Shown here piece by piece: positions 3,363 to 30,873 of a DNA stretch of 64,000 bases. A model generated the notes under the pieces. It was not told where the DNA came from. It made no database searches and saw only the letters and a list, made by a program, of their open reading frames with translations. Origin of the DNA: Hydrogenophaga sp. (lineage in GTDB: Bacteria; Pseudomonadota; Gammaproteobacteria; Burkholderiales; Burkholderiaceae_C); assembly GCA_018993155.1 (NCBI GenBank), contig JAGKSX010000041.1:21085-85084 (forward strand), given 5' to 3'. Position numbers and translations under genes: made by a program. Numbering within the stretch: the stretch's first letter is position 1; each line of letters begins with the position of its first letter.

Positions 3363-3389
3363 GGCAGCGGTGGGTTTTCTGGTTGATCC

Positions 3390-3424: not shown

Positions 3425-3493
3425 ACTTGGCATAAGACAGCGGCGACGATACGTTCCGAGATTCAAGACCACCCCCACCCATCGGAGAGACAA

Positions 3494-12540: not shown

Positions 12541-13518
12541 ATGGATCGCAGAACGGCGCTTGGCGCCATGGGCGCGGCATGCGCCACCGCCATGGTCCCC
12601 CTGGCTCGCGCGCAGGCCTTTCCCGAGCGCCCGGTGCGCATCATCGTTCCCTTCGCCAGTGGCAGCACCCCCGATGTGGTGGCGCGCATCCTGGCCTCGA
12701 AGCTGTCGCCCAAGTGGGGCCAGCAGGTCATCGTCGAGCCCCGGCCGGGCGGCAATGGCGTCATCGCGATCGCGGCCCTCAAGTCGTCGCCGCCCACCGG
12801 CCACGACCTGCTGCTGGCCAGCAGCTCGCACCTGGCGGTCAATCCGCATCTGCTGCGCAATGTGAACTACTCGGTGGAGAAGGACTTCGCTCCCATCTCC
12901 TTCGTCTTCCACACGCCGTTCTTCATCGTCACCTCCGCCACCGGGCCCCTGCAGTCCATGAAGAGCCTGATCGCGGCGGCGCAGGCGGCACCGGGCAAGC
13001 TGAACGTGGGCGTGCCCTACCTCGGCAGCCCGCCGCACCTGGCCGTGTCCATGCTGGAGAAAGCCACGGGCATCAAGATGACCGTGATTCCTTTCCGCGA
13101 CGGCCAGCAGATCTACACGGCCATCGCCGGGGGCGATGTGGACCTCTCGCTGGCGACGATCGGCTCGACGCTGCCGCTGGTGCAGGCGGGCAAGCTCAAG
13201 CTGATCGCCATCGCGGCTCCGAAACGGCTGGCGCGGCAACCCGATGTGCCCACGGTCGGCGAAGCCGGCGGGCCCATGGGCTACGACGTGAACACCTGGG
13301 TCGGCCTGGTGGCGCGCAGCGGTTCTCCGCAGCACGCCATCCAGAAGATGGCCGACGACGTGGCCGAGGTGCTGCGCGACCCCGAGGTGGTGGAGCAGTT
13401 CGCGCGGCTCGGCATCGAGCCCGAGTCGTCTTCGCCGGCGGCCATGCGCGCGCGCACGGCCAGTGACAACGCCACCTACGCCGAGGTGGTCAAGCGGCTC
13501 GGCATCTCCATCGAATGA
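12541..13518 (+). CDS. Bug/TctC-family periplasmic solute receptor
   Basis: The 325-residue protein has a signal peptide (MDRRTALGAMGAACATAMVPLARA, cut near residue 24) and Bug motifs FPERPVRIIVPFASG, STPDVVARILA and EPRPGGNG. It is the first gene of the meta-cleavage operon and probably binds the aromatic carboxylate or ketone that the operon degrades. The ligand loop deviates from the common HVPYKG (here MTVIPFRDGQQIYT), as expected for a different ligand. The stop TGA overlaps the ATG of the class II aldolase gene. The membrane partners of a tripartite transporter are absent here. Confidence 0.92.
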   Translation: MDRRTALGAMGAACATAMVPLARAQAFPERPVRIIVPFASGSTPDVVARILASKLSPKWGQQVIVEPRPGGNGVIAIAALKSSPPTGHDLLLASSSHLAVNPHLLRNVNYSVEKDFAPISFVFHTPFFIVTSATGPLQSMKSLIAAAQAAPGKLNVGVPYLGSPPHLAVSMLEKATGIKMTVIPFRDGQQIYTAIAGGDVDLSLATIGSTLPLVQAGKLKLIAIAAPKRLARQPDVPTVGEAGGPMGYDVNTWVGLVARSGSPQHAIQKMADDVAEVLRDPEVVEQFARLGIEPESSSPAAMRARTASDNATYAEVVKRLGISIE

Positions 13519-14225
13519 CGGCGCTTGCACGGGACGAGCTCGCGCAGGCGAACCGCATCCTGGCGCACCTGGGCATCCTCGATGCCTACGGCCACGTCAG
13601 TGCGCGCCTGCCGGACCGGGCGGACCGCTTCCTGATCTCCCGCTCGCTGGCGCCCGCGCTGGTGACGGAGGCCGACCTGATGGAGCTCGATCTGGAGGGT
13701 GAGCCGGTGGGGGGCGATGTGCGCAAGCCCTACCTGGAGCGCTTCATCCACGGCGCGATCTACCGCGCCCGGCCCGATGTGCAGGCGATCGTGCACAGCC
13801 ACTCGCCCTCGGTGATTCCCTTCTCGGTCTCCAGCGTGCGGCTGCGCCCGGTATGTCACATGGGCGGCTTCCTCGGTGGCGGCGCGCCGGTGTTCGACAT
13901 TGGGCACCGCTTCGGCTGCACCGACATGCTGGTGCGCGATGCCGAGCAGGGCGCAGAGTTGGCGCGTTCGCTCGGCAGCCACGCCGCCGCGCTGATGCGG
14001 GGCCACGGCTTCGTGGTGGTGGGCGGTACCGTGCAGGCCGCCGTGTACCGCGCGGTCTACACGGAATGGAACGCACGCCTGCAGCGTGACGCGATCTCGC
14101 TGGGCGGGGACGTCACCTACCTCACCGAAGCCGAGGCCGCGCTGGCGGACGAGGCGAATGCCGGCACCGTCGAGCGGCCATGGCAACTCTGGCTGCGTGA
14201 ATGCGGCCTCAACGAACAGGCTTGA
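13515..14225 (+). CDS. Class II aldolase/adducin-family protein, possible aromatic acid decarboxylase
   Basis: The 236-residue protein has the zinc-binding class II aldolase fold (L-fuculose-1-phosphate aldolase, adducin head): ILDAYGHVSARLP near residue 20, IVHSHSPSVIPFS with two metal histidines near 95, and MRGHGFVVVGG with the third near 160. Some members of this family decarboxylate dihydroxyphthalates and similar ring acids rather than cleave sugars, as known for 3,4-dihydroxyphthalate decarboxylase. Its place between a Bug receptor and meta-cleavage enzymes favours such a ring or side-chain decarboxylation. That is inference. ATGA overlap with the upstream stop shows coupling. Confidence 0.82.
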   Translation: MTALARDELAQANRILAHLGILDAYGHVSARLPDRADRFLISRSLAPALVTEADLMELDLEGEPVGGDVRKPYLERFIHGAIYRARPDVQAIVHSHSPSVIPFSVSSVRLRPVCHMGGFLGGGAPVFDIGHRFGCTDMLVRDAEQGAELARSLGSHAAALMRGHGFVVVGGTVQAAVYRAVYTEWNARLQRDAISLGGDVTYLTEAEAALADEANAGTVERPWQLWLRECGLNEQA

Positions 14226-14235
14226 AAGCAACACC

Positions 14236-15033
14236 ATGACAACACAGAACATCCTTGCCGCAGCCGAAGCGCTGCACCGGGCACGCACCGAGCGCGCGCC
14301 CATCGCCCCGATCTCGACGACGTTCGGCGTGGTCAGTGCCGAAGACGCTTATGCCGTCGCGTCACTGAACACGCAGCGCTGCCTGGCGGCGGGCGCGCGC
14401 GTGGTCGGCCTGAAGGTTGGCCTCACTTCGAAGGCTGTGCAGCAGCAACTGGGCGTGAGCCAGCCGGACTTCGGCGTGCTGCTGGACGACATGGCCTACC
14501 TGAACGGCGACACCCTGCCGGCGGGCCGGTTAATGCAGCCCAAGGTGGAGGCCGAAGTGGCCTTCGTGGTGGGGCGGGAGCTGCGCGGCGAGCGCCCTTC
14601 CTGGGGCGAATTCCTGGCGTCCCTGGCCTACGCGCTGCCGGCGCTGGAGGTCGTCGACAGCGCGATCGCCGACTGGAAGATTTCCCTGGTGGACACGGTG
14701 GCGGACAACGCCTCGTGCGGGGTGTTCGTGCTCGGGGACCAACCCGTGGCCTTGGGTGGCATCTCCCTGCGCGACATCGGCATGCAACTGTCGAAGAACG
14801 GCCAGGTCGCGTCCATCGGCACGGGCGCGGCCTGCCTGGGGCATCCGCTGCGCGCGGCCTACTGGCTCGCCTGCACCATGGCCGAACGGGGCGAGACGCT
14901 GGCCGAAGGTTCCATCATCCTGTCCGGCGCCTTGGGTCCCATGGTGCCGGTCGGCTCGGGCGATCTGGTGCATGCGGACCTGGGCGCCCTGGGGTCGGTG
15001 TCCTGCCAGTTTGCAGCGGAGGCCCGGCGATGA
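14236..15033 (+). CDS. mhpD: 2-hydroxypenta-2,4-dienoate (2-keto-4-pentenoate) hydratase
   Basis: The 265-residue protein belongs to the MhpD/DmpE hydratase family, which adds water to 2-hydroxypenta-2,4-dienoate to make 4-hydroxy-2-oxovalerate. Visible are [18 protein letters not shown], the metal-binding [11 protein letters not shown] near residue 100, and [24 protein letters not shown], all characteristic. Size fits MhpD (269). It is the first of the three-enzyme lower meta pathway here, followed by the acetaldehyde dehydrogenase with an ATGA overlap. I keep the name mhpD as family-level, since paralogues such as dmpE and bphH do the same reaction. Confidence 0.92.
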
Positions 15034-15959
15034 CGCGCAAGATGAAGGCGGCCATCATCGGCAGCGGCAACATCGGCACCGACCTGATGATCAAGATCCT
15101 GCGCCACGGCGAGGCGATCGAGATGGGCGCCATGGTCGGCATCGATCCTGCCTCCGACGGTCTGTCGCGTGCCGCCCGCATGGGCGTGGCGACCACGCAC
15201 GACGGCGTCGAAGGCCTGACCCGCATGCCCGAGTTCGCCGACATCGACGTCGTCTTCGACGCCACCAGCGCCTCGGCCCATGTGAAGAACGATGCCTTCC
15301 TGCGCGGGATCAAGCCGGGCATTCGCGTGATCGACCTTACGCCTGCGGCCATCGGCCCGTATTGCATTCCGGTCGTCAACGGTGACGCCCACCTCGATGC
15401 GCTCAATGTCAACATGGTCACCTGTGGCGGCCAGGCCACCATTCCGATGGTGGCGGCCGTCGCGCGCGTGGCCCGGGTGCACTACGCCGAGATCGTTGCC
15501 AGCATCTCCAGCAAGAGCGCCGGCCCCGGCACGCGCGCCAACATCGACGAGTTCACCGAGACCACCTCCAAGGCGATCGAGGTGGTCGGTGGCGCGGCCA
15601 AGGGCAAGGCCATCATCGTGCTCAACCCGGCCGAGCCACCGCTGATCATGCGCGACACGGTCTACACGCTCAGCGAACAGGCCGACGAGGCGGCCATCAC
15701 CGAGTCCGTCGAGCGCATGGCCGCGGCCGTGCAGGCCTACGTGCCGGGCTACCGCCTGAAGCAGAAGGTGCAGTTCGACCGCGTGAAGGGCCTGCGCATT
15801 CCCGGCGTGGGCGAGGGGCTCGAAGGCCTGAAGACCTCCATCTTCCTGGAGGTGGAGGGCGCCGCGCACTACCTGCCGGCCTACGCCGGCAACCTCGACA
15901 TCATGACCAGCGCCGCGCTGCGCACCGCCGAAACCCTGGCCCGCAAGGTGCTCGCATGA
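15030..15959 (+). CDS. mhpF: Acetaldehyde dehydrogenase (acylating)
   Basis: The 309-residue protein matches MhpF/DmpF/BphJ, which turns acetaldehyde, NAD and CoA into acetyl-CoA. The NAD-binding GSGNIG is at 11-16 and the catalytic cysteine is C132 in [12 protein letters not shown], the family position. [20 protein letters not shown] is also typical. The partner aldolase follows with an ATGA overlap; in this family the two enzymes form a complex that channels acetaldehyde. Its presence shows that the pathway ends in pyruvate plus acetyl-CoA. Confidence 0.95.
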
Positions 15960-16987
15960 ACCCCAGCCAAAAGATCTACATCTCCGACGTGACGCTGCGC
16001 GACGGCAGCCACGCCATCCGCCACCAATACAGCGTGGCGCAGGCCCGGCAAATCGCCCAGGCGCTGGACGAGGCCCAAGTGGATTCGATCGAAGTCGCGC
16101 ACGGCGACGGCCTGCAGGGCGGCAGCTTCAACTACGGCTTCGGCGCGCACACCGACCTGGAGTGGATCGAGGCCGTGGCCAGTGTGGTCAAGCACGCGAA
16201 GATCGCCACCTTGCTGCTGCCCGGCATCGGCACCGTGCACGACCTGAAGGCGGCCTACGACGCGGGCGCGCGCATCGTGCGAGTGGCCACGCACTGCACC
16301 GAGGCCGACGTCAGCAGGCAGCACATCGAATATGCCCGCCACCTCGGTATGGAAGCGGTCGGCTTTCTGATGATGAGCCACATGCAGACGCCGCAGGGCT
16401 TGGCGCAGCAGGCCAGGCTGATGGAGAGCTACGGCGCGACCTGCTGCTACGTGGTGGACTCCGGTGGCGCCTTGGGCATGAACGACGTGCGCGACCGCTT
16501 CCGCGCGTTCAAGGACACCTTGAAGCCCGAAACCCAGACCGGCATGCACGCGCACCACAACCTGAGCCTGGGCGTGGCCAACAGCATCGTGGCGGTGGAG
16601 GAGGGCTGCGACCGTGTCGATGCCAGCCTGGCCGGCATGGGGGCGGGCGCGGGCAACGCGCCGCTGGAGGTGTTCGTCGCCGCCGCAGAGCGCCTGGGCT
16701 GGCACCACGGCACCGACCTGTACAAGCTGATGGACGCGGCCGACGACATCGTGCGCCCGCTGCAGGACCGCCCGGTGCGGGTGGACCGCGAAACGCTCGC
16801 GCTGGGCTACGCCGGCGTGTACAGCAGCTTCCTGCGGCACTCGGAAACGGCGGCCGCGAAGTACGGCCTGAAGACGGTGGACATCCTGGTCGAGCTCGGC
16901 CGTCGCCGCATGGTCGGGGGGCAGGAAGACATGATCGTCGACGTGGCGCTGGACCTGCTGAAACAAGGGCAGGCGGCAGCCGCCTGA
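15956..16987 (+). CDS. mhpE: 4-hydroxy-2-oxovalerate aldolase
   Basis: The 343-residue protein matches MhpE/DmpG/BphI, the Mn-dependent aldolase that splits 4-hydroxy-2-oxovalerate into pyruvate and acetaldehyde. [12 protein letters not shown] (13-24) holds the catalytic arginine, aspartate and histidine, and the metal histidines are H198 and H200 in MHAHHN. The DmpG communication domain is present at the C-terminus ([17 protein letters not shown], then [20 protein letters not shown]). It is the last gene of the first operon; a strong terminator follows 21 bases after the stop. Confidence 0.95.
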
Positions 16988-17182: not shown

Positions 17183-19276
17183 GTGAACTACATCGGGACC
17201 GACATCGGCGGCACCTTCACCGACCTTGTCTACCTTTCTGACGAAGGCGACGTGCGCATCTTCAAGGCGCTGACCACCCCGGACGACCGCACGCAAGGCG
17301 TCATCGACGCCATGCGGCTCGCGGCCGAGGCCGACGGCATCAGCCTGGACCAGCTGATCGAGCAGCTCGGCTACTTCGCCCATGGGACGACGGCCGCGAC
17401 CAACGCCTTCATCGAGCGCAAGGGCGCGCGCACCGGCCTGCTGGCCACCCGGGGCTTCGAGGACACCCTGCGCATCCAGCGCGCGATGGGCGGCTGGATC
17501 GGCCTGCCTTCGCACGAGATCTCCCACTTCTCCAAGCGCCACGTCCCCACGCCCATCATCCCGAGCGACCTCATCGAGGGCATCGTGGAGCGCGTCGACT
17601 ACAAGGGCGGCGTGATCGTGGCGCTCGACGAGGCGGCGGCCCGCCAGTCGATCCGCGCGCTGATCGCCAAGGGCGTGGAGGCGATCGCGATCAGCTTGCT
17701 CTGGTCCTTCCGCAATCCCGCGCACGAGCAGCGCCTGGTGGCCCTGGTGGAAGAAGAGGCCCCGGGCATGTTCGTCACCGCGTCCTCCAGCCTGGTGCCC
17801 ATCATCGGCGAGTACGAGCGCACCTCGACGACGGCGATCAACGCCTACCTGGGCCCGGTGATCCACCGCTACATCAACGGCCTCGAAGCCTCGATCCGCA
17901 AGTTCGGCTTCAACGGCCCGATCTCCATCATGGAGTCCGGCGGCGGCGTGCTGCCCGCCTCGGAGGCCGCGTTCCAAGCCGCCAACCTCATGACCTCGGG
18001 CCCGGCCGGTGGCGTGCTCGCGTCGCAGAAGCTCGGCGAACTGCTGGGCTACCCCAACGTGCTGACGGCCGACATGGGCGGCACCAGCTTCGACGTGGGC
18101 CTGATCGTGAACGGGCAGCCGCTGCTGGAAACCGTGCGCGAGGTCGGGCGCTTCCACGTGGCGCTGCCTTCGATCAAGGTCACGGCCATCGGCGCTGGCG
18201 GCGGCTCGATCGCGCGGGTGGTCGACGGCCACCTGCATGTCGGCCCCGAGAGCGCGGGCTCGACCCCGGGGCCGGCCTGCTACGGCCGCGGCGGCGTGGA
18301 GCCCACCATCACCGACGCGGACGTGGTGCTGGGCATCATCGACGCGAAGTACTTCCTGGGTGGCCGCATGAAGCTGGACGTGGCTGCCGCGCATGAGGCG
18401 GTGCGCAAGCACGTCGCCGAGCCGCTGGGGCTGACGGTGGCGCAGGCCGCGGCCGGCATCCGCGAAGTGGCCAACAACCAGATGGCCGACCTGCTGCGCC
18501 GCGTGACCCTGCGCGCCGGCTACGACCCGCGCGATTTCGTGCTCATGGCCTATGGCGGCGCGGGCGCCACGCACGCGCACCAGTACGCCGAGGTCGCCGG
18601 TATCGGCACGGTGGTGGTTCCGAGCACGGGCCCGGCGCACTCCGCCTTCGGCACTGTCACGGGCGACCGCCACCGCTCCTTCTCCCTGGCCATCGGGCAA
18701 CACGCGCCGGCGCGCTTCAAGAAGGCCTCAGACCACGTGGACCCTGCCGTGCTCAACCGGGGCTTCGACCAGATCGAAACCCGCGCGAGAGACGCGCTCG
18801 GCGAAGGTGTGTCCATCCACCGCTACATCGGCATGCGCTTTCGCCAGCAGGTGCACGAGATCGGCATCCCGGCCCCGGCCGGCGTGCTGCAGGCCAAGGA
18901 CGTCGACGCGCTGGTCGACACCTTCGAGGCCGAGTACGAGCGCATCTACGGCAAGAACACCGCGCTGCGCATCTCGGGCGTGGAATTCACCGTGGTGCGC
19001 GTCGAAGCCACCTCGCCGGTCATCCGCCCGACGCCGCGCCACGTGGACGGGACGGGCCGCTCCAACAAGCCCTGTGGCCGGCGCCAGGTGTACTTCTTCG
19101 GCACCGACTTCGTGGACGCCGACATCTACCGCAGCGAGGACGTGGGCCCCGGCCACGCGATCGCTGGCCCCGCCATCGTCGAGCGGCCGGACACCACCAT
19201 CGTCGTCGGCCCGGGCCAGGTCGCCGAGATGGAGCCCTACGGCAATTTCCTGATCCGCATTCAACCCAGCCACTGA
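17183..19276 (+). CDS. Hydantoinase A / acetone-carboxylase-type ATP-binding subunit
   Basis: The 697-residue protein is of the HyuA/5-oxoprolinase/acetone and acetophenone carboxylase superfamily: an ASKHA-fold ATPase that phosphorylates a carbonyl group. Phosphate-loop motifs are GTDIGGTFTDLVYL (5-18) and LTADMGGTSFDVGLI (near 300). Also visible are HGTTAATNAFIERKGARTGLLATRGF and AYGGAGATHAHQYA. GTG 17183 has GGAGA nine bases upstream. It pairs with the HyuB-type gene at 19290. Members either hydrolyse lactam/hydantoin rings with ATP or carboxylate ketones; the gamma-like tail on its partner favours carboxylase-type chemistry here, but I cannot decide from sequence. Confidence 0.87.
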   Translation: MNYIGTDIGGTFTDLVYLSDEGDVRIFKALTTPDDRTQGVIDAMRLAAEADGISLDQLIEQLGYFAHGTTAATNAFIERKGARTGLLATRGFEDTLRIQRAMGGWIGLPSHEISHFSKRHVPTPIIPSDLIEGIVERVDYKGGVIVALDEAAARQSIRALIAKGVEAIAISLLWSFRNPAHEQRLVALVEEEAPGMFVTASSSLVPIIGEYERTSTTAINAYLGPVIHRYINGLEASIRKFGFNGPISIMESGGGVLPASEAAFQAANLMTSGPAGGVLASQKLGELLGYPNVLTADMGGTSFDVGLIVNGQPLLETVREVGRFHVALPSIKVTAIGAGGGSIARVVDGHLHVGPESAGSTPGPACYGRGGVEPTITDADVVLGIIDAKYFLGGRMKLDVAAAHEAVRKHVAEPLGLTVAQAAAGIREVANNQMADLLRRVTLRAGYDPRDFVLMAYGGAGATHAHQYAEVAGIGTVVVPSTGPAHSAFGTVTGDRHRSFSLAIGQHAPARFKKASDHVDPAVLNRGFDQIETRARDALGEGVSIHRYIGMRFRQQVHEIGIPAPAGVLQAKDVDALVDTFEAEYERIYGKNTALRISGVEFTVVRVEATSPVIRPTPRHVDGTGRSNKPCGRRQVYFFGTDFVDADIYRSEDVGPGHAIAGPAIVERPDTTIVVGPGQVAEMEPYGNFLIRIQPSH

Positions 19277-19289
19277 AGCGAGAGGCACC

Positions 19290-21479
19290 ATGAGCAACGT
19301 ATTCGAGTACCAAAAGAAAGACGTCGACGCCGTCACCTTCGAGGTGATCCGCCACCGACTCCTGTCGATCACCGACGAACAGGCGAGCACGCTGGCCTCC
19401 GTGTCGGGCTCAGCCCTCGTGAACGAGGCAACCGACTTCAACACCGGCCTCTACCGCGCGTTTGGCGAGGTCGTCACCATGGGCAAGACGGTGACCTTCC
19501 ACGCCGCCTCGCTCTCGCTGATGGTCAAGCACGTCATCGAAGACTGCGAACAGACCGTGGGCATCCACGAGGGCGACATGTTCATCGTGAACCACCCGCA
19601 CAAGGGCGCGCTGCACTGCCCGGACATCGGGATCCTGGCCCCGATCTTCGTGGAGGGCCGCCGCATCGGCTGGACCGGGGCTTGCGCCCACCAGCTGGAC
19701 GTGGGCGGCATGGTGCCCGGCAGCTTCGCCTCCATGGCCAAGGACATTCGCCAGGAAGGCATGCTGATCCCGCCGGTGAAACTGGTGGACCGGGGCGAGC
19801 TGCGCAGCGATGTGCTGAACTTCATCACCGGCATGTCGCGCCTGCCGACCAACATCAGCCTGGACCTCAAAGGCCTGATGGCAGCCAACCACATCGGCAT
19901 CAAGAGCCTGCTCGACACCGTGCGCAAGTACGGCGTGGAAACCGTGCTTACCGTGATGGACGGCATGATGGACCTCTCCGAATCGAAGATGCGCAAGCGC
20001 CTGCTCGAGTTGCCCGATGGGGTCTTCCGCGCGCAGGCCTTCCTGGACCACGACGGCTTCGAGAACAAGATCTACAAGATCCACGTCGAACTGCGCAAGC
20101 AGGGCGAGAAGATCGTCTTCGACTACACCGGCTCGGACGCCCAGGCGCCCGGTTTCGTGAACGCCACGCGCACCGGCCTGCTGGCCGGCATCTACGCGGG
20201 CATCCTGCCCATCATCGCCTACGACCTGCCCTGGAACGACGGCCTGCTGCGCCCGCTGGAGGTGCTGTCCACCGAGGGCTCCATCGTCTCCTGCAAGTTC
20301 CCGGCGCCCTGCAGCCAGGGCCCGCTGGGCGCGATGTGGCTGATCGAGGTCACGACCACTGAAGTGATGTCCAAGCTGATGGCCAGCCACCCGGATTACC
20401 TTCGCGAAGCCCAGGCCGCACCGGCCAGCGGCCCGGACCTGTTCCACATCCACGGGCAGAACCAGTACGGCGAGCCCGCGACGGCGCCCATCCTCGAAGT
20501 GATGCTCTCCGGCGGCGGCGCCTATGCGCACCGCGACGGCATCAGCGTCTCGGGGCAACGCAACATCACGGCCGGCAAGGCCCCCAACGTGGAGGCCACC
20601 GAGCTGAAGCTGCCGGTGCTCTACCTGTACCGCCGCATCATCACCGACAGTTCCGGCGCGGGCGCCTCGGTCGGCGGCCAGGCGGCCGGCGCGGCCTTCG
20701 TGCTGCACGGGGTCGACGAGGTCGAGTCGCTGGTGGCCTGCCATGGCTACGAGTCGCCCACCTCGCGCGGCCTCTTCGGTGGTTATCCCAGCGGCTGCAA
20801 CCACCGCCGGCTGCTGCGGCATTCGAACATCCGCGCGCTGATGCAGGACGGCATCTTCCCGGACCGCCTGGACGGCATCGAGGGCGACGAGACCGTGTTC
20901 ACCGCCAAGCCACCGGAGTTCCCTTTCGAGCGCAACGACGTCTACGAGTGCAACCCCACCGCTGGTGGAGGCTGGGGCGACCCGCTGCGCCGCGAGCCGG
21001 CGCGGGTGGCCGACGATGTGGCCCAGGGCGTGTTCTCCGAGGCGGTGGCCAAGACCATCTTCGGCGTGGTGGTGACGGACGGGCGCCTCGACGCGGCGGC
21101 GACCGAAGAGCGACGTCGCCACATCCGCGCGTCGCGTCTGCAGTGGACGGCGGCGCGCGCGCTGCCCGGCAAACTCCGCTTCGACAAGCGCGACGGCGTC
21201 AAAGCCATCGTCGGCGACGTGGCCCGTTTGCAGCGCGGGGCCGACGGTGCCTACTTCGTCTGCGAAGCCTGCGACACGGCGGTCGCGCCGGCGGGCGAGA
21301 ACTGGAAGGACTACGCGCGCCAGCACGTGGCGCAGCCCGCCGACCTGGGCCCGCGCGTGAAGGTGCACCAGGACCTCGAAGTGGTGGAGCACGCCTGCCC
21401 GCATTGCGCGCAACTGCTCGACGTGGAAGTGCGCCGCAAAGGGGAAGCCTGCCTGTTCGACATCGAGGTGGCCGCATGA
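19290..21479 (+). CDS. Hydantoinase B-type subunit fused to an acetone-carboxylase gamma-like zinc domain
   Basis: The 729-residue protein is a HyuB-family subunit for about the first 610 residues (TDFNTGLYRAFGEVVTMG, VNHPHKGALHCPDIGIL with likely metal histidines, ending AGGGWGDPLRREPARVADDVAQG). About 100 extra residues follow. They carry two cysteine pairs, C658-x2-C661 and C703-x2-C706, in CEACDTAV and CPHCAQLLDVEV, closely resembling the separate gamma subunit of acetone carboxylase (AcxC). So one chain seems to combine the beta-type and gamma-type subunits. The stop overlaps the next ATG (ATGA). The ordinary HyuB of hydantoinases lacks this tail. Confidence 0.85.
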   Translation: MSNVFEYQKKDVDAVTFEVIRHRLLSITDEQASTLASVSGSALVNEATDFNTGLYRAFGEVVTMGKTVTFHAASLSLMVKHVIEDCEQTVGIHEGDMFIVNHPHKGALHCPDIGILAPIFVEGRRIGWTGACAHQLDVGGMVPGSFASMAKDIRQEGMLIPPVKLVDRGELRSDVLNFITGMSRLPTNISLDLKGLMAANHIGIKSLLDTVRKYGVETVLTVMDGMMDLSESKMRKRLLELPDGVFRAQAFLDHDGFENKIYKIHVELRKQGEKIVFDYTGSDAQAPGFVNATRTGLLAGIYAGILPIIAYDLPWNDGLLRPLEVLSTEGSIVSCKFPAPCSQGPLGAMWLIEVTTTEVMSKLMASHPDYLREAQAAPASGPDLFHIHGQNQYGEPATAPILEVMLSGGGAYAHRDGISVSGQRNITAGKAPNVEATELKLPVLYLYRRIITDSSGAGASVGGQAAGAAFVLHGVDEVESLVACHGYESPTSRGLFGGYPSGCNHRRLLRHSNIRALMQDGIFPDRLDGIEGDETVFTAKPPEFPFERNDVYECNPTAGGGWGDPLRREPARVADDVAQGVFSEAVAKTIFGVVVTDGRLDAAATEERRRHIRASRLQWTAARALPGKLRFDKRDGVKAIVGDVARLQRGADGAYFVCEACDTAVAPAGENWKDYARQHVAQPADLGPRVKVHQDLEVVEHACPHCAQLLDVEVRRKGEACLFDIEVAA

Positions 21480-22225
21480 ACGCGCGCTGGATCACGTTCC
21501 CGAGCGGCGCGGACCAGGTCCGCGCCTACCTCGCCGAGCCCCCGGGCACCGAGGTCGTGGGGGCCATCGTCTGCGCGCCCGAAAACCTGGGCGTGACCGA
21601 GCACCGGCAGGCCGAGACGCGGCGCCTGGCCGCCGAGGGCTTCATCGTGCTGACGGTGGACCCGTACAGCCGCATCGGCGGCCGCCCGCCGCAGGACCAC
21701 ACCACAGCGGAAGAGCGCCGCAGCAAGGCCTTCATCGCGGCCAGGGACGAGACGGTGGTGCCCGATTGCCAGGCCGCGCTCGCGTGGCTGCGAACCCAGC
21801 CCCGGGTGGACCCGAAGGCGATCGGTGCCGTCGGCTACTGCCTGGGCGGGGGCACGGTGCTCGCCTGGGCGGCCCAGACCCGGGACCTGGCCTGTTCGGT
21901 CGTGCTCTACGCGCTGCCGGTCATCCCGGCCGCGTACACGCCGGATGGCCAGGCCCGTTCGCGCATCGGGCTGGCACCCAAGATCGCCGCGCCCATGCAG
22001 CTGCACTTCGGCGAGGCGGACGAGGCGATCCCGCTGGACCAGGCGCAGGCCTTGAAGGCCGCGCTGGAAGCCCAGGCCCCGGTGCCTGTTGACTTCCACC
22101 TGTACCCGGGCGCGCGCCACGCCTACATGGACGACACGCTGGACCGTTACTCACCCGAAGCGGCGAAGCTGACCTACGGGCGCATGGTCGCCTTCTTCCG
22201 GGGACATCTGGAGGCACCGAAATGA
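21476..22225 (+). CDS. Dienelactone hydrolase-family protein
   Basis: The 249-residue alpha/beta-hydrolase matches the dienelactone hydrolase family: nucleophile C122 in GAVGYCLGGG, acid in FGEADEAIPLDQ and histidine H215 in GARHAYMDD, giving the Cys-Asp-His triad. VVGAIVCAPENLGVTEHRQAETRRLAAEGF is the family N-terminal motif. It may open a lactone or enol ester formed in this pathway, for example after carboxylation or ring opening; the substrate is unknown. Start ATG 21476 overlaps the HyuB stop; its own stop overlaps the next ATG, so it is in the middle of a tightly coupled operon. Confidence 0.88.
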   Translation: MNARWITFPSGADQVRAYLAEPPGTEVVGAIVCAPENLGVTEHRQAETRRLAAEGFIVLTVDPYSRIGGRPPQDHTTAEERRSKAFIAARDETVVPDCQAALAWLRTQPRVDPKAIGAVGYCLGGGTVLAWAAQTRDLACSVVLYALPVIPAAYTPDGQARSRIGLAPKIAAPMQLHFGEADEAIPLDQAQALKAALEAQAPVPVDFHLYPGARHAYMDDTLDRYSPEAAKLTYGRMVAFFRGHLEAPK

Positions 22226-23049
22226 CCGCCTCCATCGTGTGGGGCGGCGTCTGCTCGCACACCGGGGCGATGATGCGCGCGCCCAAGGCGGGCGATGGCG
22301 AGGGCGAGCGCGTCGGACGCGTGTTCGCGGCCTTCGACGAACTGGCCGAGTCGCTGCACCGCTCCGGCGCCCAGGTGCTGGTGACGGTCGCGACCGACCA
22401 CTTCCTCACCTTCGACTACGCCAACCTGCCGGTGTTCTCCCTCGGCACCGGCACGAAGTTCCGCGGCCACGGGGAGTTCGGTGTGCCGCAGCGGGACTTC
22501 GATGGCATCGACGGGCTGGGCGAGGCCGTTCACGCCTCGCTGGTGCAGGGCGGCTTCGATGTGGCCAGCGCCCGGGGCATGCCGCTGGACCACGCCTTCG
22601 CCTGCCCCCTGCAGCTGATGTTCAAGCGCCTTTCGATGCCGGTGCTCCCCCTCTACGTGAACTGCACCGTGTCACCGCTGCCCACCCACCAGCGATGCCT
22701 TGAACTGGGCAAGGCGCTTGGCCAGGCCCTGCGCGCGCAGCGCGTGGTGGAGCGCGTCGCGATCGTGGGCACGGGCGGCATCAGCCACTGGGTGGGCACG
22801 CCGCAGACCGGCACGATCAACGAGGCCTTCGACCGGCAGTTCCTCGACGACTTCACGCAGGGGCGTTTCGAGGCCATCGCGCGCTGGGACTCGGACGAGG
22901 TCATCCGCACGGCCGGCAACGGCGCGGCGGAGATCCGCAACTGGCTGGTCGCGGCCGGGGCCTTCGGCGCGCGCGCGGCAAGGTCCTTGGCCTACGAACC
23001 GGTCCGGGCCTGGAGCACGGGCATCGGCGTGCTGGAGATGCAGGCATGA
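22222..23049 (+). CDS. LigB-type class III extradiol ring-cleavage dioxygenase, catalytic subunit
   Basis: The 275-residue protein has the LigB fold (protocatechuate 4,5-dioxygenase beta, MhpB, AmnB). Likely non-haem Fe(II) ligands are H13 (CSHTGAM), H60 (VTVATDHFLTF) and E237 (AAEIRNW); H189 in GGISHWVG matches the catalytic base of LigB, and LDHAF (H124) is also conserved. It opens a catechol-type or aminophenol-type ring next to the hydroxyls with O2. The LigA-type small subunit follows immediately with an ATGA overlap, in reverse order to the classic ligA-ligB. Because a C-C hydrolase lies downstream, the ring-fission product is probably a 2-hydroxy-6-oxo-dienoate. Confidence 0.9.
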   Translation: MTASIVWGGVCSHTGAMMRAPKAGDGEGERVGRVFAAFDELAESLHRSGAQVLVTVATDHFLTFDYANLPVFSLGTGTKFRGHGEFGVPQRDFDGIDGLGEAVHASLVQGGFDVASARGMPLDHAFACPLQLMFKRLSMPVLPLYVNCTVSPLPTHQRCLELGKALGQALRAQRVVERVAIVGTGGISHWVGTPQTGTINEAFDRQFLDDFTQGRFEAIARWDSDEVIRTAGNGAAEIRNWLVAAGAFGARAARSLAYEPVRAWSTGIGVLEMQA

Positions 23050-23322: not shown

Positions 23323-24186
23323 ATGAACTCCAACCCAGTGCGTTCCCGTTGGGTCGTCGCCCAGGGCGTGCGAACCCATTACGCCGAAGCCGGCGACGGC
23401 GAGCACAAGGTGCTCGCCCTGCACGGCGGCGGAGCCGGCTCTTCCGGCGCCTCCGGCATGGGCCCGGTGCTGCCCCTGCTTGGCAACGATTTCCATGTGC
23501 TGGCGCCCGACTCGATCGGCGGCTTCGGCCTGACCGACGTGCACGCGCCCACGCCCTATGGCCTGATCAGCCGGGCCCGGCACACCGCCGACTTCATCGA
23601 CGCGCTGGCGATCGACCGCTGCAGCCTCATCGGCAATTCGCAGGGGGCCTGGGCCGGGGTCTATTACGCGATGCTGCACCCCGACCGCGTGAAGAAACTG
23701 GTCATCGTCTCCTCACTCACCATCGCCGGGTCCATGGGCATCAAGCAGGCGCCCAACGCCGCGATGAAAGCCCTCATGGGCTACGACGGCACGCGCGAAG
23801 GCATGAAGGCGCTGCTGGAGGCGCTCATCATCGACACGTCGCGCATCACGGACAAGCTGATCGATGACCGCCAGGCCGCCGCCACCCGGCCGGGCGCGCT
23901 GGACGCCTTCCGTCGCATGGCCGCGGGCATCGAGCACGTGCGCAACGACCCGGTGCTGTCGCTGCAGACCCAATGGCAGCGCGCCCTGCCCATCCTCACC
24001 GAGCGCATCCCGACCCTGATCCTCTGGGGCAAGGCCGACACCTTCGCGCTGCCCGAGACGGGCCAGGCCCTGGCGGACCTGCTGCCCGCCGCGCGCATCG
24101 AATGGGTGGAGGGCGCCGGCCACCAGGTGCAGACCGACGCGCCCGATGCCTCGGCCCGGCTCATCAGGGACTTTCTGCATGGATAG
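23323..24186 (+). CDS. Meta-cleavage product (C-C bond) hydrolase, MhpC/BphD-like
   Basis: The 287-residue alpha/beta-hydrolase has nucleophile S106 in IGNSQGAW, acid D239 in LWGKADTFALP and histidine H267 in GAGHQVQTDAP. LHGGGAGSSGAS is the oxyanion loop, and the whole pattern matches MhpC, BphD and HsaD. Such enzymes split 2-hydroxy-6-oxo-dienoates into 2-hydroxypenta-2,4-dienoate (substrate of the hydratase at 14236) and a carboxylic acid set by the ring substituent. It therefore links the ring-cleavage genes with the lower pathway. AAAGGAA precedes ATG 23323. Confidence 0.92.
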   Translation: MNSNPVRSRWVVAQGVRTHYAEAGDGEHKVLALHGGGAGSSGASGMGPVLPLLGNDFHVLAPDSIGGFGLTDVHAPTPYGLISRARHTADFIDALAIDRCSLIGNSQGAWAGVYYAMLHPDRVKKLVIVSSLTIAGSMGIKQAPNAAMKALMGYDGTREGMKALLEALIIDTSRITDKLIDDRQAAATRPGALDAFRRMAAGIEHVRNDPVLSLQTQWQRALPILTERIPTLILWGKADTFALPETGQALADLLPAARIEWVEGAGHQVQTDAPDASARLIRDFLHG

Positions 24187-24193
24187 GACCACC

Positions 24194-24574
24194 ATGCCCC
24201 AATCCGATGCCGCGCCCGAGCGCATGGCGGGCATGGTGCCCGGCGTGCGCGCCGGCGGTTTCCTGTTCCTGTCGGTGGTCCGGGGCCGGGAACCCGGCAC
24301 GGGCCGGTTTCCCGCCGATCCTCTGGAGCAGGCGCGCCTGGCGCTGAAAAACCTGTCGGAGGTGCTCAAGGCCTCGGGCGGCACGCTGGCCGACGTGGTG
24401 AAGGTCACGCTTTACCTGGGCGACCTGCGCCACCGCGACGCCTTCCACCAGGCCTGGGTGGAGGCCTTCCCGGCCGACCCCCCGGCGCGCACCGCCGTGG
24501 GCGTGGCCGACCCGAATGCCTCGCCCGGCGGCGGCGCGCTGTTCGCGCTGGACGTGATCGCCCTGGCGCGCTGA
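24194..24574 (+). CDS. RidA/YjgF-family protein
   Basis: The 126-residue protein is a RidA-family trimer subunit: GMVPGVRAGGFLFLSVVRG, FPADPLEQARLALKNLSEVLKASGGTLADVVKVTLYLGDL and PARTAVGVADP. Canonical RidA deaminates reactive enamines with an arginine in the (S/A)RxxVxVxxLP region; here PARTAVGVADP retains the arginine but not the usual LP ending. Some relatives are 2-aminomuconate deaminases in aminophenol meta-cleavage pathways, so a nitrogen-bearing intermediate is possible. ATG 24194 is used as upstream codons overlap the hydrolase gene. The stop overlaps the GntR start (TGATG). Confidence 0.85.
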   Translation: MPQSDAAPERMAGMVPGVRAGGFLFLSVVRGREPGTGRFPADPLEQARLALKNLSEVLKASGGTLADVVKVTLYLGDLRHRDAFHQAWVEAFPADPPARTAVGVADPNASPGGGALFALDVIALAR

Positions 24575-25329: not shown

Positions 25330-25815
25330 ATGCCCCCACCCGCCGCTTTCTACCGGCCCGATGCGCTTCCCGCGGACCAGAACGTGGGCTATCTGATGAA
25401 GCGCATCGTCAACGGCCTCGGTCACGACATCGATGCCTTGCTGGCGTCCCAGGGCCTGACGCACGCGCAGTGGATGCCGATCTACAAGCTGCACCTGGGC
25501 CAGGGTCGCACCGTGGCCGAACTGGCGGCCGCGTGCCTGATGGATGCGGGCGCCATGACCCGCACGCTGGACCGGCTCGAACGCAAAGGGCTGGTGCGCC
25601 GCACCCGCTCCGCCCAGGACCGGCGGGTGGTCGATCTGGCGCTCACGCCACAAGGCCGCGCCGCGGCGGCCGGGATCCCGTTCGTCCTGTGCGAGGTGCT
25701 CAATGCGCGCTTGGCAGGTTTCTCCAGGGAAGAGTGGCAGCAGCTCCAGTCCTTCCTCAGCCGCATGCTCGACAACGCGGCCGGATCGGGCGCGGGGCCT
25801 CTCACGCCCCGGTGA
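25330..25815 (+). CDS. MarR-family transcriptional regulator
   Basis: The 161-residue protein has the MarR winged helix (VAELAAACLMDAGAMTRTLDRLERKGLVRRTRSAQDRRVVDLALTPQGR, about 55-105). MarR proteins are dimers that release DNA on binding phenolic compounds. It is nine bases after the second GntR gene and probably ends the operon. Its 3' end overlaps the convergent crotonase gene by 14 bases. Two or three regulators on one aromatic locus suggest response to more than one signal, such as substrate and CoA-thioester. The target site was not identified. Confidence 0.9.
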   Translation: MPPPAAFYRPDALPADQNVGYLMKRIVNGLGHDIDALLASQGLTHAQWMPIYKLHLGQGRTVAELAAACLMDAGAMTRTLDRLERKGLVRRTRSAQDRRVVDLALTPQGRAAAAGIPFVLCEVLNARLAGFSREEWQQLQSFLSRMLDNAAGSGAGPLTPR

Positions 25816-26548
25816 AGCGCGGCGCGCGCCGCGCGCGCCGCGCGGCCACCCCTTCCGCCGCGTCCGCGCTGTCGGCCACCAGACGGGCCTGGTACTGGGT
25901 CATGACCATCGCTTCCACTGGTGCCTTGGCCAGCGCCTCGCGCGCGGTCTGCTTGAGAAAGCGCAACACGCTCGGCGAGGCATCGGCCAGGTGGTGCGCC
26001 ATCTCCATTGCCACCATGGTCTCTTCGCCGGGGGCGCACAGGCGGTTGACCAGGCCGACCTCGTGCGCGCGCAGCGCGCCCACGGGTCGGCCCAGCAGCA
26101 TCAGCTCCATCGCCACCTTGTGCGGCAGGCGCGGCAGCAGCGAGGTGATCAGGCCCGCCGCCGTGCCCAGTTGCGCTTCGGGGTAGATGAAGCTGGCCTC
26201 GCTGGACGCCACGCACAGGTCGCAGAACGCCACCATCGACACGCCCGCCGCGATCACCGGTCCCTGGACCGCGGCGATCACGGGTTTGCCCAGTGGAAAG
26301 GGCAGGTCGGGGATCGCGCGCCAGAAGTCCGCCGGGGCGTCCGAGGTGTCGAGGCCGGCGGTGAACACCGGCCCCTCGGCGCGCAGCACCGCGACGCGGT
26401 CACGCGAGGCCGAGAAGGCCTTCCACGCGGCGTGCAGCTGGTCCACCATGGCCGCGTTCATCGCGTTGCGCTTGTGGGACCGATTCAAGGTGATGACCCG
26501 GACCCGGCCCACGGAGCGCACGTCGATCAGCGCGTCGGGTGGCGTCAT
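25802..26548 (-). CDS. Enoyl-CoA hydratase/isomerase family protein
   Basis: The 248-residue crotonase-fold protein has NRSHKRNAMNAAMVDQL, the oxyanion-hole segment GPVFTAGLDTSD and VIAAVQGPVIAAGVSMVAFCDL. The first catalytic glutamate of rat enoyl-CoA hydratase (E144) is replaced by serine (AGVSMVAFCD), while the second (E164) is kept in FIYPEAQLG. A single-glutamate active site is seen in isomerases and in some hydratases and lyases. The start ATG 26548 overlaps the stop of the gene upstream (26545), so the two crotonases are coupled. It is the last gene of the minus-strand operon from 31913. Confidence 0.85.
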   Translation of the reverse strand: MTPPDALIDVRSVGRVRVITLNRSHKRNAMNAAMVDQLHAAWKAFSASRDRVAVLRAEGPVFTAGLDTSDAPADFWRAIPDLPFPLGKPVIAAVQGPVIAAGVSMVAFCDLCVASSEASFIYPEAQLGTAAGLITSLLPRLPHKVAMELMLLGRPVGALRAHEVGLVNRLCAPGEETMVAMEMAHHLADASPSVLRFLKQTAREALAKAPVEAMVMTQYQARLVADSADAAEGVAARRARRAPRFTGA

Positions 26549-27282
26549 CGGGTCTTCTCGAGAAAAGCCTTGAAGATGCGCTGCGTGTCTTCCGTGTTGA
26601 GCAGGTCGGCGAACGCGCGGACCTCGGCATCGAGCGCGCCCATCAATTCGGCCTCGTGGCTTCGGCGCAGCAGCGCCTTGCCGGTGCGCAGCGAGGCCCT
26701 GGGCAGCTGGGCCAGGTCCGCTGCGGTGGCCCGGGCGGTGGCCAGCACCTGGCCGGGTTCGGCCAGCGCGGTGACGAAGCCTGCGGCATGCGCTTCCTGC
26801 CCGGTGAAGGGCTTGCACTGCAACAGCCATTCGCGCGCCCGCCGCGCGCCCACGAGCCGTTCGAGCAGAAGGCTGGAGCCGGCTTCCGGGCACAGGCCCA
26901 GGGCCACGAACGGCATGCGAAAGCGCGTCTGCGGCGTGGCGTAGACAAAGTCCACGTGCTGCAGCAAGGTGGCCCCGATGCCGATGGCGAAACCTTCGAC
27001 GGCGGCGATCACCGGCACGTCGGTGCGGGCGAGCTTGCGCAGAAAGCGCACGGCGGGCGAGTCTTCGTGGCCGCGCCGGGTCTGGAAGTCCTGGATGTCC
27101 GCGCCCGCCGTGAACATGCCGCCCGCGCCGTGCAGGATGACGACCGCGCACGCGCCATCGGCACTGGCCTGCTCGATCAGCTCACCCAGCCGGTCGTACA
27201 TCGCGTGGCTGAGGGCGTTGCGCTTGTCCGGCCGGTCCAGGCAGATCTCCAGCACGCCCTGGTGGTTGTGCGAGCGGATCAT
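26545..27282 (-). CDS. Enoyl-CoA hydratase/isomerase family protein (ECI-like)
   Basis: The 245-residue crotonase-fold protein has LDRPDKRNALSHAMYDRL, MFTAGADIQDF and GFAIGIGATLLQHVDFVYA. Both hydratase glutamates are absent (threonine and phenylalanine at the E144 and E164 positions). Instead it has LGLCPEAGSSLLLERLVG, resembling the PEAxSS segment whose glutamate is catalytic in delta3,delta2-enoyl-CoA isomerases. I therefore read it as an isomerase rather than a hydratase, with moderate certainty. Four-base overlaps link it to both neighbours. Confidence 0.83.
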   Translation of the reverse strand: MIRSHNHQGVLEICLDRPDKRNALSHAMYDRLGELIEQASADGACAVVILHGAGGMFTAGADIQDFQTRRGHEDSPAVRFLRKLARTDVPVIAAVEGFAIGIGATLLQHVDFVYATPQTRFRMPFVALGLCPEAGSSLLLERLVGARRAREWLLQCKPFTGQEAHAAGFVTALAEPGQVLATARATAADLAQLPRASLRTGKALLRRSHEAELMGALDAEVRAFADLLNTEDTQRIFKAFLEKTR

Positions 27283-28571
27283 GGCGCCCCCACCGGGTCG
27301 GCTTCGTGGCAGGTGACGATGCCACGCTGCCGCAGGCCGTCGATCGCTGCCGCGTCCAGGCCCATGACGTCCGTGAGCACCTCGGCCGTGTGGCGACCCA
27401 GCGCGCTCGGGGCGCGCGGGTACCGGATGGGCGTGGCGCTGAACTTGATGGGGTTGGCGATGCCGCGCACGAAACCTTCGCCGTCGTCGCTGCCCACCTC
27501 CACGGCCATCTGGCGGTGGACGATCTGGGGATGCTGGAAGGTCTCGCGGTAGCTGTTGATGCGCCCATGCGGAATGTCGCAGCGCGCGAACGCCTCCAGC
27601 CAGTGCGCGCACGGTTGCCGTCCGATCAGCGCCTGCAGCTCGGGCAGCAGGGTCTCGCGGTGCCGGATGCGGCCGGACATGCGGGCGAACCTCGGGTCGG
27701 CCGCCAGGGTGGTGCTGTCCACGGCCTGGCAGAACCGGCCCCATTGGGCGTCGTTGCCCACCGCCACGACGATCTGGCCGTCGGCCGTGTCGAACACCTG
27801 GTAGGGCACCAGCGCCGGGTGCGCGTTGCCCCAGCGGCGCGGGTCCAGGTCGTTGACCAGGTGGAACGCACCCTGGTTGGAGGCCAGCGCGGTCACGCAG
27901 TCCAGCAGGGCGAGGTCGATGTACTGCCCTTCGCCGGTCGCGTGGCGGTGGTTGAGCGCGGCCAGCACCGCGATGGACGCGTACAGCCCGGTGGTGAGGT
28001 CGGCCATCGCGATGCCCACCTTCTGCGGCCCGCCGCCGGGCAGGTCGTCGCGCTCGCCGGTGATGCTCATCAGCCCGCCTTCGGCCTGGAAGACGAAGTC
28101 GTAGCCAGGGCGGTCGGCGTAGGGGCCGGTCTGGCCGTAGCCCGTGATGGAGCAGTAGACGATGCCGGGGTTGACGCGGCGGATGCTCTCGTAGTCCAGG
28201 CCGTACCGGGCCAGGTCACCCACCTTGAAGTTCTCGATGAACACGTCGCACCGCGCCGCCATCGAGCGCACGAGCTCGGCGCCCTCGGGCGACGCGATGT
28301 CGATGCCCACCGAGCGCTTGTTGCGGTTGGTCGAGGCGAAGTAGGTGGCGTCGTGCGCCTCGCGGCCGTCGGTGGTGCGGAAGTAGGGCGGGCCCCATTG
28401 GCGCGTGTCGTCGCCGCGCGTGGGGTGCTCGATCTTGATGACGTCGGCCCCCATGTCCGCCAGGGTCTGCGTGCACCAGGGCCCGGCGAGGATGCGGGTG
28501 AGGTCGAGCACGCGCACGTTGCCCAGGGCTTGCGCGTTCACTGGCGTGCCTTCGGCCTGTGTGGCGCTCAT
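27279..28571 (-). CDS. CaiB/BaiF family (family III) CoA-transferase
   Basis: The 430-residue protein has the family III signature VLDLTRILAGPWCTQTLADMGADVIKIEHPTRGDDTR, then NRNKRSVGIDIASPEG, FIENFKVGDLARYGLDY and the catalytic aspartate D191 in GIAMADLTTGLYA. It moves CoA from a donor thioester to a carboxylic acid, here probably the imported substrate of this operon. Full length for the family (about 400-430). Four-base overlaps join it to the ECI-like gene and to the aldehyde dehydrogenase gene, so the whole set is one transcript. Confidence 0.93.
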   Translation of the reverse strand: MSATQAEGTPVNAQALGNVRVLDLTRILAGPWCTQTLADMGADVIKIEHPTRGDDTRQWGPPYFRTTDGREAHDATYFASTNRNKRSVGIDIASPEGAELVRSMAARCDVFIENFKVGDLARYGLDYESIRRVNPGIVYCSITGYGQTGPYADRPGYDFVFQAEGGLMSITGERDDLPGGGPQKVGIAMADLTTGLYASIAVLAALNHRHATGEGQYIDLALLDCVTALASNQGAFHLVNDLDPRRWGNAHPALVPYQVFDTADGQIVVAVGNDAQWGRFCQAVDSTTLAADPRFARMSGRIRHRETLLPELQALIGRQPCAHWLEAFARCDIPHGRINSYRETFQHPQIVHRQMAVEVGSDDGEGFVRGIANPIKFSATPIRYPRAPSALGRHTAEVLTDVMGLDAAAIDGLRQRGIVTCHEADPVGAP

Positions 28572-30004: not shown

Positions 30005-30873
30005 GCCGACACCTCCGCCAGCGGCTGCACCCGCTCGGGTCGGCCCGACCACTGCCAGGCCAGCGAGTGCCGGGACACGCCCATCAGCACGCCGTTGAGC
30101 GCGCTGGGGTGGATCCACAGGCCATCGCGTTCCTGCGGCGTCTGGGTGCGCCGCGTCCAGCGGCAGCCGCGCCGATCCAGGCGGTCGATCACGGCCTGAA
30201 GGTCGTCGGTCTGCACGTAGCACATGTACAGGTCGTCTCCGCGCTTGGCCGAGAACCGGCCCATGGCGAAAGCGGGGTCGTGCGCCTCGGAGAGTTCGAT
30301 GCGATCCAGCCGGTCGGGATCGAACAGCATCAGCGTGCCGTCGTAGCCGAAGCGCGGAAAGCTGATGCCCACCATGCGATCGGCCTGCAGCCCCAGCGCG
30401 GCGGTGTAGCGCGCCGCCACGGCCTGCCACGGCGAGCGCAGCACCATGGTGAGTTCGTACAGGAACTCGATCGGCCCGGGCGCGCGCGGCCGGGCGGGCT
30501 GGGCGTGGGCGGACACCGTCAGCGGCAGTCCGTGCAGGTCGGCGCTGTCGAGGTACAGGCGGTCGTCGGCGCGCGTGAAGCGCACCGCGTTCGCCTTCAG
30601 ATGCTGTTCGCAGGCGGCGAGGTCGACGGCCGTCACCCCGCCCCGCAGCAGGCCCTCGCCGAAACGGTCGAGGTGCGTCCGCACGGGCCCATCGCCCCGG
30701 GGTTCGCACAGCTCCACCTCGGAGCCGCCGATCGCCATGCGGCGGACCCGCGCGTTGAGGAAGTCGCTCTCGAACGCCCCGGCCACGCAGGCGCCGAGCA
30801 CATCGGTGTAGTTCTGTTCGGCCTCGTCGAGCGAGCGGACCGCCACCAGGATTCTGTCTACGGTATGGAACAT
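30001..30873 (-). CDS. VOC (glyoxalase/bleomycin-resistance fold) family protein
   Basis: The 290-residue protein has two glyoxalase-like modules (MFHTVDRILVAVRSLDEAEQNYTDVLG; and from about 130, EFLYELTMVLRSPWQAVAARYTAALGLQ). Metal ligands of classic glyoxalase, epimerase or extradiol enzymes (His/Glu at fixed places) are not all obvious; H4 and the acidic residues in SEVELCEP are candidates. Methylmalonyl-CoA epimerases and type I extradiol dioxygenases share the fold, so it could be an epimerase or a binding protein. No precise function can be given. It overlaps the dehydrogenase gene by four bases. Confidence 0.75.
   Translation of the reverse strand: MFHTVDRILVAVRSLDEAEQNYTDVLGACVAGAFESDFLNARVRRMAIGGSEVELCEPRGDGPVRTHLDRFGEGLLRGGVTAVDLAACEQHLKANAVRFTRADDRLYLDSADLHGLPLTVSAHAQPARPRAPGPIEFLYELTMVLRSPWQAVAARYTAALGLQADRMVGISFPRFGYDGTLMLFDPDRLDRIELSEAHDPAFAMGRFSAKRGDDLYMCYVQTDDLQAVIDRLDRRGCRWTRRTQTPQERDGLWIHPSALNGVLMGVSRHSLAWQWSGRPERVQPLAEVSA

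Follow-up and report, generated by a model that had tools for sequence, protein, structure and literature searches.

A HyuB-type chain with a fused acetone carboxylase gamma-like domain in a meta-cleavage operon of Hydrogenophaga sp.

Two-gene hyuAB operons are usually read as hydantoinases. In the cited part of a published guide to the family (PMC5214803), three branches are distinguished, Hyd with two genes and no gamma subunit, Acx with three genes, and Apc with four or five; of these, Acx and Apc possess gamma whereas Hyd lacks it, and hydrolases are told from carboxylases by gene number, tree branch and chain length. Caprolactamase, as described in the cited part of PMC8453981, has two chains only. 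A stretch of 64,000 nucleotides from Hydrogenophaga sp. (contig JAGKSX010000041.1, positions 21,085 to 85,084; hereafter the window, meaning the whole stretch analysed) carries a hyuAB-type pair with as many genes as Hyd and with gamma as in Acx and Apc, which falls into none of the three branches in phylogenetic trees. Fused-gamma pairs of this kind break the published guide, since they combine the gene number of hydrolases with the gamma of carboxylases.

The two chains and the gamma-type tail

The fused gene (positions 19290-21479, + strand) is an intact ORF with 729 codons open. It matches PF02538 (Hydantoinase_B) at residues 13-565 (E 1.7e-119) and continues into a gamma domain up to residue 729, confirming the sequence-only reading of a HyuB-family chain with extra C-terminal residues. 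The ORF is intact in five other records as well, and an assembly artefact or a frameshift was rejected on this ground. Every score against the NCBIfam equivalogs was far below the cut-off. In the HyuB core (approximately residues 1-619; 19290-21146, + strand), the metal-site columns of the alignment hold H109, D112, H134 and D49; the metal-site residues are His150, Asp153, His175 and Glu89 in Acx, and His123, Asp126, His148 and Asp65 in Apc. The Glu89 column of Acx is occupied by D in the window chain and by E in both Acx rows. These columns are kept in hydrolases too, and are therefore not diagnostic of a carboxylase. Residue 448 separates the gamma-bearing from the gamma-less groups: Arg was found in 26/33 gamma-bearing rows, both Acx rows among them (the rest being K in 3, Q in 3 and S in 1), and in 0/22 gamma-less rows, where Tyr is the commonest residue (17/22). 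An AlphaFold model of the full-length chain, made with five alignment rows, had a mean pLDDT of 41 and was of little use.

The partner gene (17183-19276, + strand) encodes a HyuA-type ATP-binding chain of 697 aa (PF05378, PF01968 and PF19278), which is alpha in the naming of Weidenweber. Its phosphate motifs are intact (DIGGTFTD at residue 7 and DMGGTSFD at residue 297), and the adenosine motif GSTPGP is present at residue 359. The interface segment VERVDYKG, starting at residue 135, is close to the fingerprint that is assigned to Apc alpha, and not to alpha-prime, in the cited part of PMC5214803. In a phmmer search against the PDB, the chain scored best with caprolactamase CapA (407 bits), followed by ApcC (387) and AcxB (368); caprolactamase was also best in NCBIfam (553 vs 397), both scores being below the cut-off. 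Four other HyuA matches, one of them cut by a contig end, were detected in the genome, none of them on the contig of the window.

The tail of the fused chain (approximately residues 640-729; 21207-21479, + strand) contains C658, C661, C703 and C706 at the positions claimed for them. It had been proposed to be acetone carboxylase gamma-like, and a profile search against the gamma family bore this out: PF08882 (Acetone_carb_G) matched residues 655-727 with 21.9 bits, just over the gathering cut-off of 21 (E 2.1e-4), and this ORF was the only PF08882 match in the genome. When the tail alone was searched by phmmer against the PDB, AcxC was the best match, although a weak one (E 0.34). An AlphaFold model of residues 601-729, for which the window protein and four relatives were used as input, had a mean pLDDT of 88. 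In a Foldseek comparison of this model with 350,542 PDB chains, the top five matches each had a probability of 1.00; four of them were acetone carboxylase gamma chains (5svc_C, 5svb_C, 5m45_C and 5svb_F; E 7.2e-5 to 1.1e-4), and the other, 5l9w_C (E 1.5e-3), belongs to the Apc core complex and with 127 residues has the size of a gamma chain. At the sixth match, the probability dropped to 0.30. An alignment of fused tails and separate gamma proteins showed two Cys pairs, a motif near N-W/Y-K, and CPxC in common, and, together with the Foldseek matches, led us to reject a chance occurrence of the Cys pairs.

In the six rows of the window clade, the first Cys pair is C-x2-C or C-x-C, and the second is C-x2-C in all six. 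According to the cited part of PMC5543143, zinc is bound in X. autotrophicus AcxC by Cys74, Cys76, Cys124 and Cys127, and the role of gamma is called unclear by the authors. The cysteines are not universal, as locus L023 keeps one Cys and L026 none; the HyuB of L026 (5995-8079) has a tail of gamma length with neither Cys pairs nor a match to our gamma HMM, perhaps a decayed gamma domain. We also observed a separate AcxC beside acxAB (L070, 9269-9769) without the first Cys pair, so that even acetone carboxylases do not all have the zinc site. As many of the fused tails had served to train the gamma HMM, their own matches to it prove nothing. Outside the training set, it matched L023, L057, L059, L063, L068, L134, L135 and L136, the match of L057 being weak (E 3.9e-5). 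The HMM also matched L081, an Apc-type control; no match was obtained in 19/19 longer gamma-less loci, nor in a further gamma-less pair, L137.

The operon and its relatives

Judged from its domain content, the operon is an mhp-like meta-cleavage set with a dienelactone-hydrolase (DLH)-family hydrolase. Genes for an extradiol dioxygenase, a C-C hydrolase-like protein and MhpD/E/F-like proteins lie around the pair, all on the + strand, in agreement with the meta-cleavage setting claimed for it. The first gene of the presumed operon encodes a TctC-type periplasmic binding protein (12541-13518; PF03401), and is followed by that of a class II aldolase/adducin family protein (13515-14225; PF00596), which is distant from the 3,4-dihydroxyphthalate decarboxylase PhtC (NCBIfam 92 bits, cut-off 200). 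The genes up to the pair encode an MhpD-like 2-keto-4-pentenoate hydratase (14236-15033; PF01557; NCBIfam 293 bits, cut-off 350), an MhpF-like acetaldehyde dehydrogenase (15030-15959; PF09290) and an MhpE-like 4-hydroxy-2-oxovalerate aldolase (15956-16987; PF00682 and PF07836). Behind the pair lies the DLH-family gene (21476-22225; PF01738), whose first 4 bases are also the last 4 of the fused gene, and whose translation contains a GYCLGG elbow. It is followed by genes for a LigB-type (class III) extradiol ring-cleavage dioxygenase (22222-23049; PF02900; NCBIfam matches including the MhpB type, all below cut-off), an alpha/beta hydrolase like the HsaD/BphD C-C hydrolases (23323-24186; PF00561; NCBIfam HsaD 133 bits, cut-off 400) and a RidA-family protein (24179-24574; PF01042; start picked among in-frame ATGs). 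Neither a CoA ligase, a beta-keto acid cleavage enzyme (BKACE), an SDR nor a ring hydroxylase was found among the genes scanned in the operon. A separate cluster lies downstream on the - strand (25802-30709), encoding two crotonase-family proteins, a CaiB-type CoA transferase and an aldehyde dehydrogenase, and is adjoined by a MarR gene (25330-25815).

The five other records of the fused ORF are those of Ramlibacter sp. WS9 (92% identity to the window protein), Pigmentiphaga sp. NML080357 (82%), alphaproteobacterium AAP38 (80%), Niveispirillum cyanobacteriorum (80%) and Rhizobiales bacterium 62-17 (53%). In the stretches fetched for these relatives, HyuA is in front of the fused gene, a DLH-family gene is directly behind it, and LigB and alpha/beta-hydrolase genes are close by in 5/5; one HyuA is present per operon of the window clade in the stretches seen. 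The MhpD/F/E-like genes are common to the window, L006 and L009, RidA to the window, L006, L008 and L009, and the class II aldolase to the window, L006, L007 and L019. Three congeners from the family search (G019, G961 and G1032) gave no match at E 1e-100, and the operon looks on that account like an accessory of the genome.

The fused form is more widely spread. A search of the order detected HyuB matches extending through the tail in at least 11/399 genomes, the present one included, and at least 13 places; the family search (299 genomes) added at least one fused form (G879) and at least one three-gene form (G824), and the phylum search (398 genomes) at least one three-gene form (G194), all counts being lower bounds with at most two or three candidates scored per genome. 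When PF08882 was run over 398 genomes, 9/10 places were separate proteins of AcxC/ApcB size (open frames of 124-269 aa), and the fused form was found only in the ORF of the window itself. Plasmid records added fused forms from haloarchaea and Actinomycetota (L020-L024; Natrinema, Halorientalis, Rhodococcus and Mycobacterium branderi). These proteins, annotated as hydantoinase B/oxoprolinase family protein and approximately 29-32% identical to the window protein, have the same architecture next to hyuA, but unlike the window their neighbours are CoA ligases or transferases, SDRs or P450s, with no meta-cleavage operon. Three relatives have gamma in its own frame: L025 (Natronosalvus) shows HyuA, HyuB and then a 93-residue gene annotated as acetone carboxylase subunit gamma, and in L135 and L136 gamma comes right after HyuB and is followed by an SDR gene. 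The HyuA/HyuB/gamma locus of L135 is flanked by genes for a DUF3363 protein and an integrase-core protein (2164-4245 and 17597-18454), hinting at a possible mobility of the locus.

Place of the two chains in the family

Phylogenetic trees were constructed for HyuB (55 of 56 rows, leaving out the fragment L003) and for HyuA (59 rows; 4/20 gamma-less loci, L078, L084, L089 and L092, have no HyuA of at least 450 aa). In the HyuB tree, 22/22 gamma-less rows form one clade (100/99), and in the HyuA tree 18/18 do so (99/95); the window chain lies outside in both. The gamma-less HyuB rows comprise caprolactamase, N-methylhydantoinase, hydantoinase-type loci of the order, and two rows from the genome of the window. 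A plain hydantoinase or oxoprolinase was rejected on account of this place. Of the two outcomes named beforehand as refuting the sequence-only reading, a tail without any gamma match and a pair inside the 5-oxoprolinases or hydantoinases, neither was observed. The window pair is nested in neither AcxABC nor ApcABCD, whose rows are apart in both trees, and its sister is L057 in both (98/95 and 100/99). Locus L044, at first placed in the hydrolase group, was relabelled as separate-gamma after falling among the Apc rows; a longer piece of the same place (L081) shows the gamma gene.

The gamma label changes once in the HyuB tree when L026 is counted as gamma-bearing; with L026 recounted as gamma-less, it changes once in the HyuB tree and twice in the HyuA tree. 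The HyuA tree unites 21 fused and 3/3 three-gene rows on one branch (86/93), with the fused L066 below it and the fused L020, L022 and L026 next to the gamma-less clade. The HyuB tree is weak in the order of its deep branches (67/19), and gain and loss of gamma are not told apart, since both trees are unrooted. Both chains belong to deep gamma-bearing branches other than Acx and Apc.

The AcxABC enzyme of X. autotrophicus (PDB 5SVB, 5SVC and 5M45) resembles the window pair in combining HyuA, HyuB and gamma with one HyuA chain, in its gamma fold, which is the top structural match, and in Arg at the HyuB 448 column in both Acx rows. It differs in that its gamma, which is 168 residues long and extended at the N-terminus, is a protein of its own encoded by a downstream gene, in its long beta and gamma chains, and in its separate clades in both trees; no meta-cleavage operon was noted at Acx loci. 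The ApcABCD(E) enzyme of A. aromaticum (PDB 5L9W) shares a gamma homologue and an alpha-chain interface fingerprint that the window HyuA resembles, but has a second HyuA (alpha-prime), a separate gamma and a separate clade, with the gene order alpha-prime, gamma, alpha, beta (L071-L074). CapAB (PDB 6YRA) and the hydantoinases/oxoprolinases share two genes and the best single-chain scores for HyuA and HyuB; in contrast to the window pair they have no gamma and lie in a different clade in both trees, and the scores of the window chains are far below the NCBIfam cut-offs.

Carboxylation or hydrolysis

The neighbour genes that say most about the reaction are those of relatives, outside the window. 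A BKACE gene lies directly upstream of hyuA on the same strand in L057, and again directly upstream in L066, which is far from L057 in the trees and has an AMP-binding (CoA) ligase downstream. In L063 and L067, close relatives of each other, a gene with a carbonic-anhydrase domain lies upstream of hyuA; its product combines an Adhesin_E-like part with an alpha-type carbonic anhydrase domain (L063 4573-6261 and L067 4739-6382). A gene for an Sbt_1 sodium-dependent bicarbonate transporter was observed near the fused pair of L065 (1899-2906), with a LysR gene on the other strand between them. Molybdenum hydroxylase genes adjoin the fused members L058, L060 and L064, and flavin hydroxylase genes adjoin L061 and L134. 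BKACE adjoins 2/23 fused, 0/19 gamma-less and 0/8 separate-gamma loci; in the gamma-less pair L137, it lies 0.3 kb beyond on the opposite strand, convergent. Counted by place, it lies beside one fused pair each in G558 and G549, and beside a gamma-less one in G407 (L137). Genome-wide, BKACE was present in 26/32 genomes checked, Sbt_1 in 16/32 and PF00194 in 11/32, and BKACE adjacency was rejected as a statistical proof because the cases are too few. Gene calls in unannotated loci were longest-ORF picks, and the Pfam scan covered 30 selected neighbours and a further 10. As read from their domains, the BKACE, ligase, carbonic anhydrase and bicarbonate transporter genes would fit a reaction of ketone and bicarbonate to a beta-keto acid.

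We consider it probable that the pair is an ATP-dependent ketone carboxylase rather than a lactam hydrolase. What we observed directly is the domain make-up, the gamma fold match, the intact ATP and metal motifs, the tree place and the conserved operon. A two-chain carboxylase is the better reading than a hydantoinase because the tail matches gamma and both chains lie outside the gamma-less clade, and this is helped by the BKACE, CoA-ligase and carbonic-anhydrase genes beside other gamma-bearing pairs. The Arg at HyuB 448 and the existence of three-gene forms with gamma in its own frame speak for it as well. The original claim of a two-chain carboxylase that is not a hydantoinase is supported in these respects, but only in part, as the pair falls inside neither Acx nor Apc, and as N-heterocycle or lactam chemistry would suit the neighbours of other fused members too. 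With the fused L020 and L022 next to the gamma-less clade, the presence of gamma may not imply carboxylation. The small number of fused loci with BKACE, the BKACE gene near the gamma-less L137, the metal-site columns shared with hydrolases, and the window operon itself, with RidA and with neither CoA ligase nor BKACE among the genes scanned, also count against it. In the proposed mechanism, the HyuA chain would phosphorylate the enol, and probably bicarbonate too, at a single ATP site, and the two activated intermediates would be coupled by the HyuB core at its His/Asp metal site. The gamma domain, fused to the C-terminus of HyuB, is presumably a structural zinc module. The beta-keto acid formed would be fed into the meta-cleavage route that the same operon encodes. 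Carboxylation, the use of bicarbonate, the zinc and the catalytic metal, the stoichiometry and the substrate are what we infer here, and an aryl-ketone substrate, as originally suggested, is a guess.

It is possible, although doubtful in our view, that the pair is instead an ATP-dependent cyclic amidohydrolase that hydrolyses a phosphorylated imidate and so opens a lactam, imide or hydantoin, with gamma kept from a common ancestor. The best HyuA score, that with CapA, and the two-gene layout, which is that of Hyd in the cited part of PMC5214803, agree with this. The RidA genes of the window, L006, L008 and L009 would make sense if the product contained nitrogen, and the molybdenum or flavin hydroxylases beside several fused members would suit lactam-forming routes of N-heterocycles. 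An amidohydrolase is at odds with the position of both chains outside the clade that holds the caprolactamase and N-methylhydantoinase rows, and with the absence of gamma from all 19 longer gamma-less loci, and the BKACE, CoA-ligase and carbonic-anhydrase neighbours of relatives would not be expected. The BKACE and carbonic-anhydrase neighbours, together with gamma, would be left unexplained if the pair were a ketone kinase or hydrolase that phosphorylates an enol or a lactone/ester carbonyl, with the DLH protein rather than bicarbonate taking the intermediate. The 4-base overlap of the DLH gene, with its Cys elbow, and the DLH homologue behind the fused gene in 5/5 other clade records speak for such a coupling; we know of no precedent for it in the hydantoinase/carboxylase family and regard it as improbable.

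A four-chain Apc enzyme was rejected on the grounds of the HyuA tree and the single HyuA on the contig of the window. The pair might still be part of a larger Apc-like complex whose second HyuA (alpha-prime) is borrowed from another locus, as the two-site mechanism of Apc needs alpha-prime and epsilon (PMC5214803, cited part) and the genome has the four further HyuA matches mentioned above. None of these four is on the same contig, the operons of the window clade have one HyuA each in the stretches seen, and Acx works with one HyuA chain, all of which make borrowing very improbable.

Within the ketone carboxylase reading, a more specific and speculative proposal, unlikely to hold in all its parts, is that fused-gamma pairs would be an unrecognised type of the family, two-chain ketone carboxylases with built-in gamma, that the substrate in the window would be a catecholic methyl ketone, and that the enzyme would link CO2 fixation to aerobic ring cleavage with no need for a CoA ligase. 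Carboxylation of, for example, a 2,3-dihydroxyphenyl methyl ketone might give a 3-oxopropanoate that resembles the natural substrate of MhpB. Any lactone would be opened by the DLH protein; LigB and the C-C hydrolase would then yield oxaloacetate, from hydrolysis of the ring-cleavage product, and 2-hydroxypenta-2,4-dienoate, and the rest of the route to pyruvate and acetyl-CoA would fall to the MhpD/E/F-like enzymes. This route is modelled on mhp chemistry, by analogy with MhpB and MhpC, and is of low confidence. It does not so far account for RidA and the PhtC-like aldolase.

In openly licensed full text, searched for hydantoinase with acetone carboxylase, gamma and meta-cleavage and for acetone or acetophenone carboxylation with hydroxylated acetophenones, no title or abstract start among the papers listed described a hydantoinase-gamma fusion. 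Should the fused-gamma pairs prove to be carboxylases, a group of CO2-fixing enzymes, found here in Pseudomonadota, Actinomycetota and haloarchaea, is at present filed under the wrong function. With only two chains, the form would be convenient for studying the role of gamma and the point at which hydrolysis and carboxylation diverge in the family. As far as its sequence indicates, the fused-gamma pair points to an overlooked, two-chain kind of CO2-fixing enzyme in an operon for aromatic breakdown.
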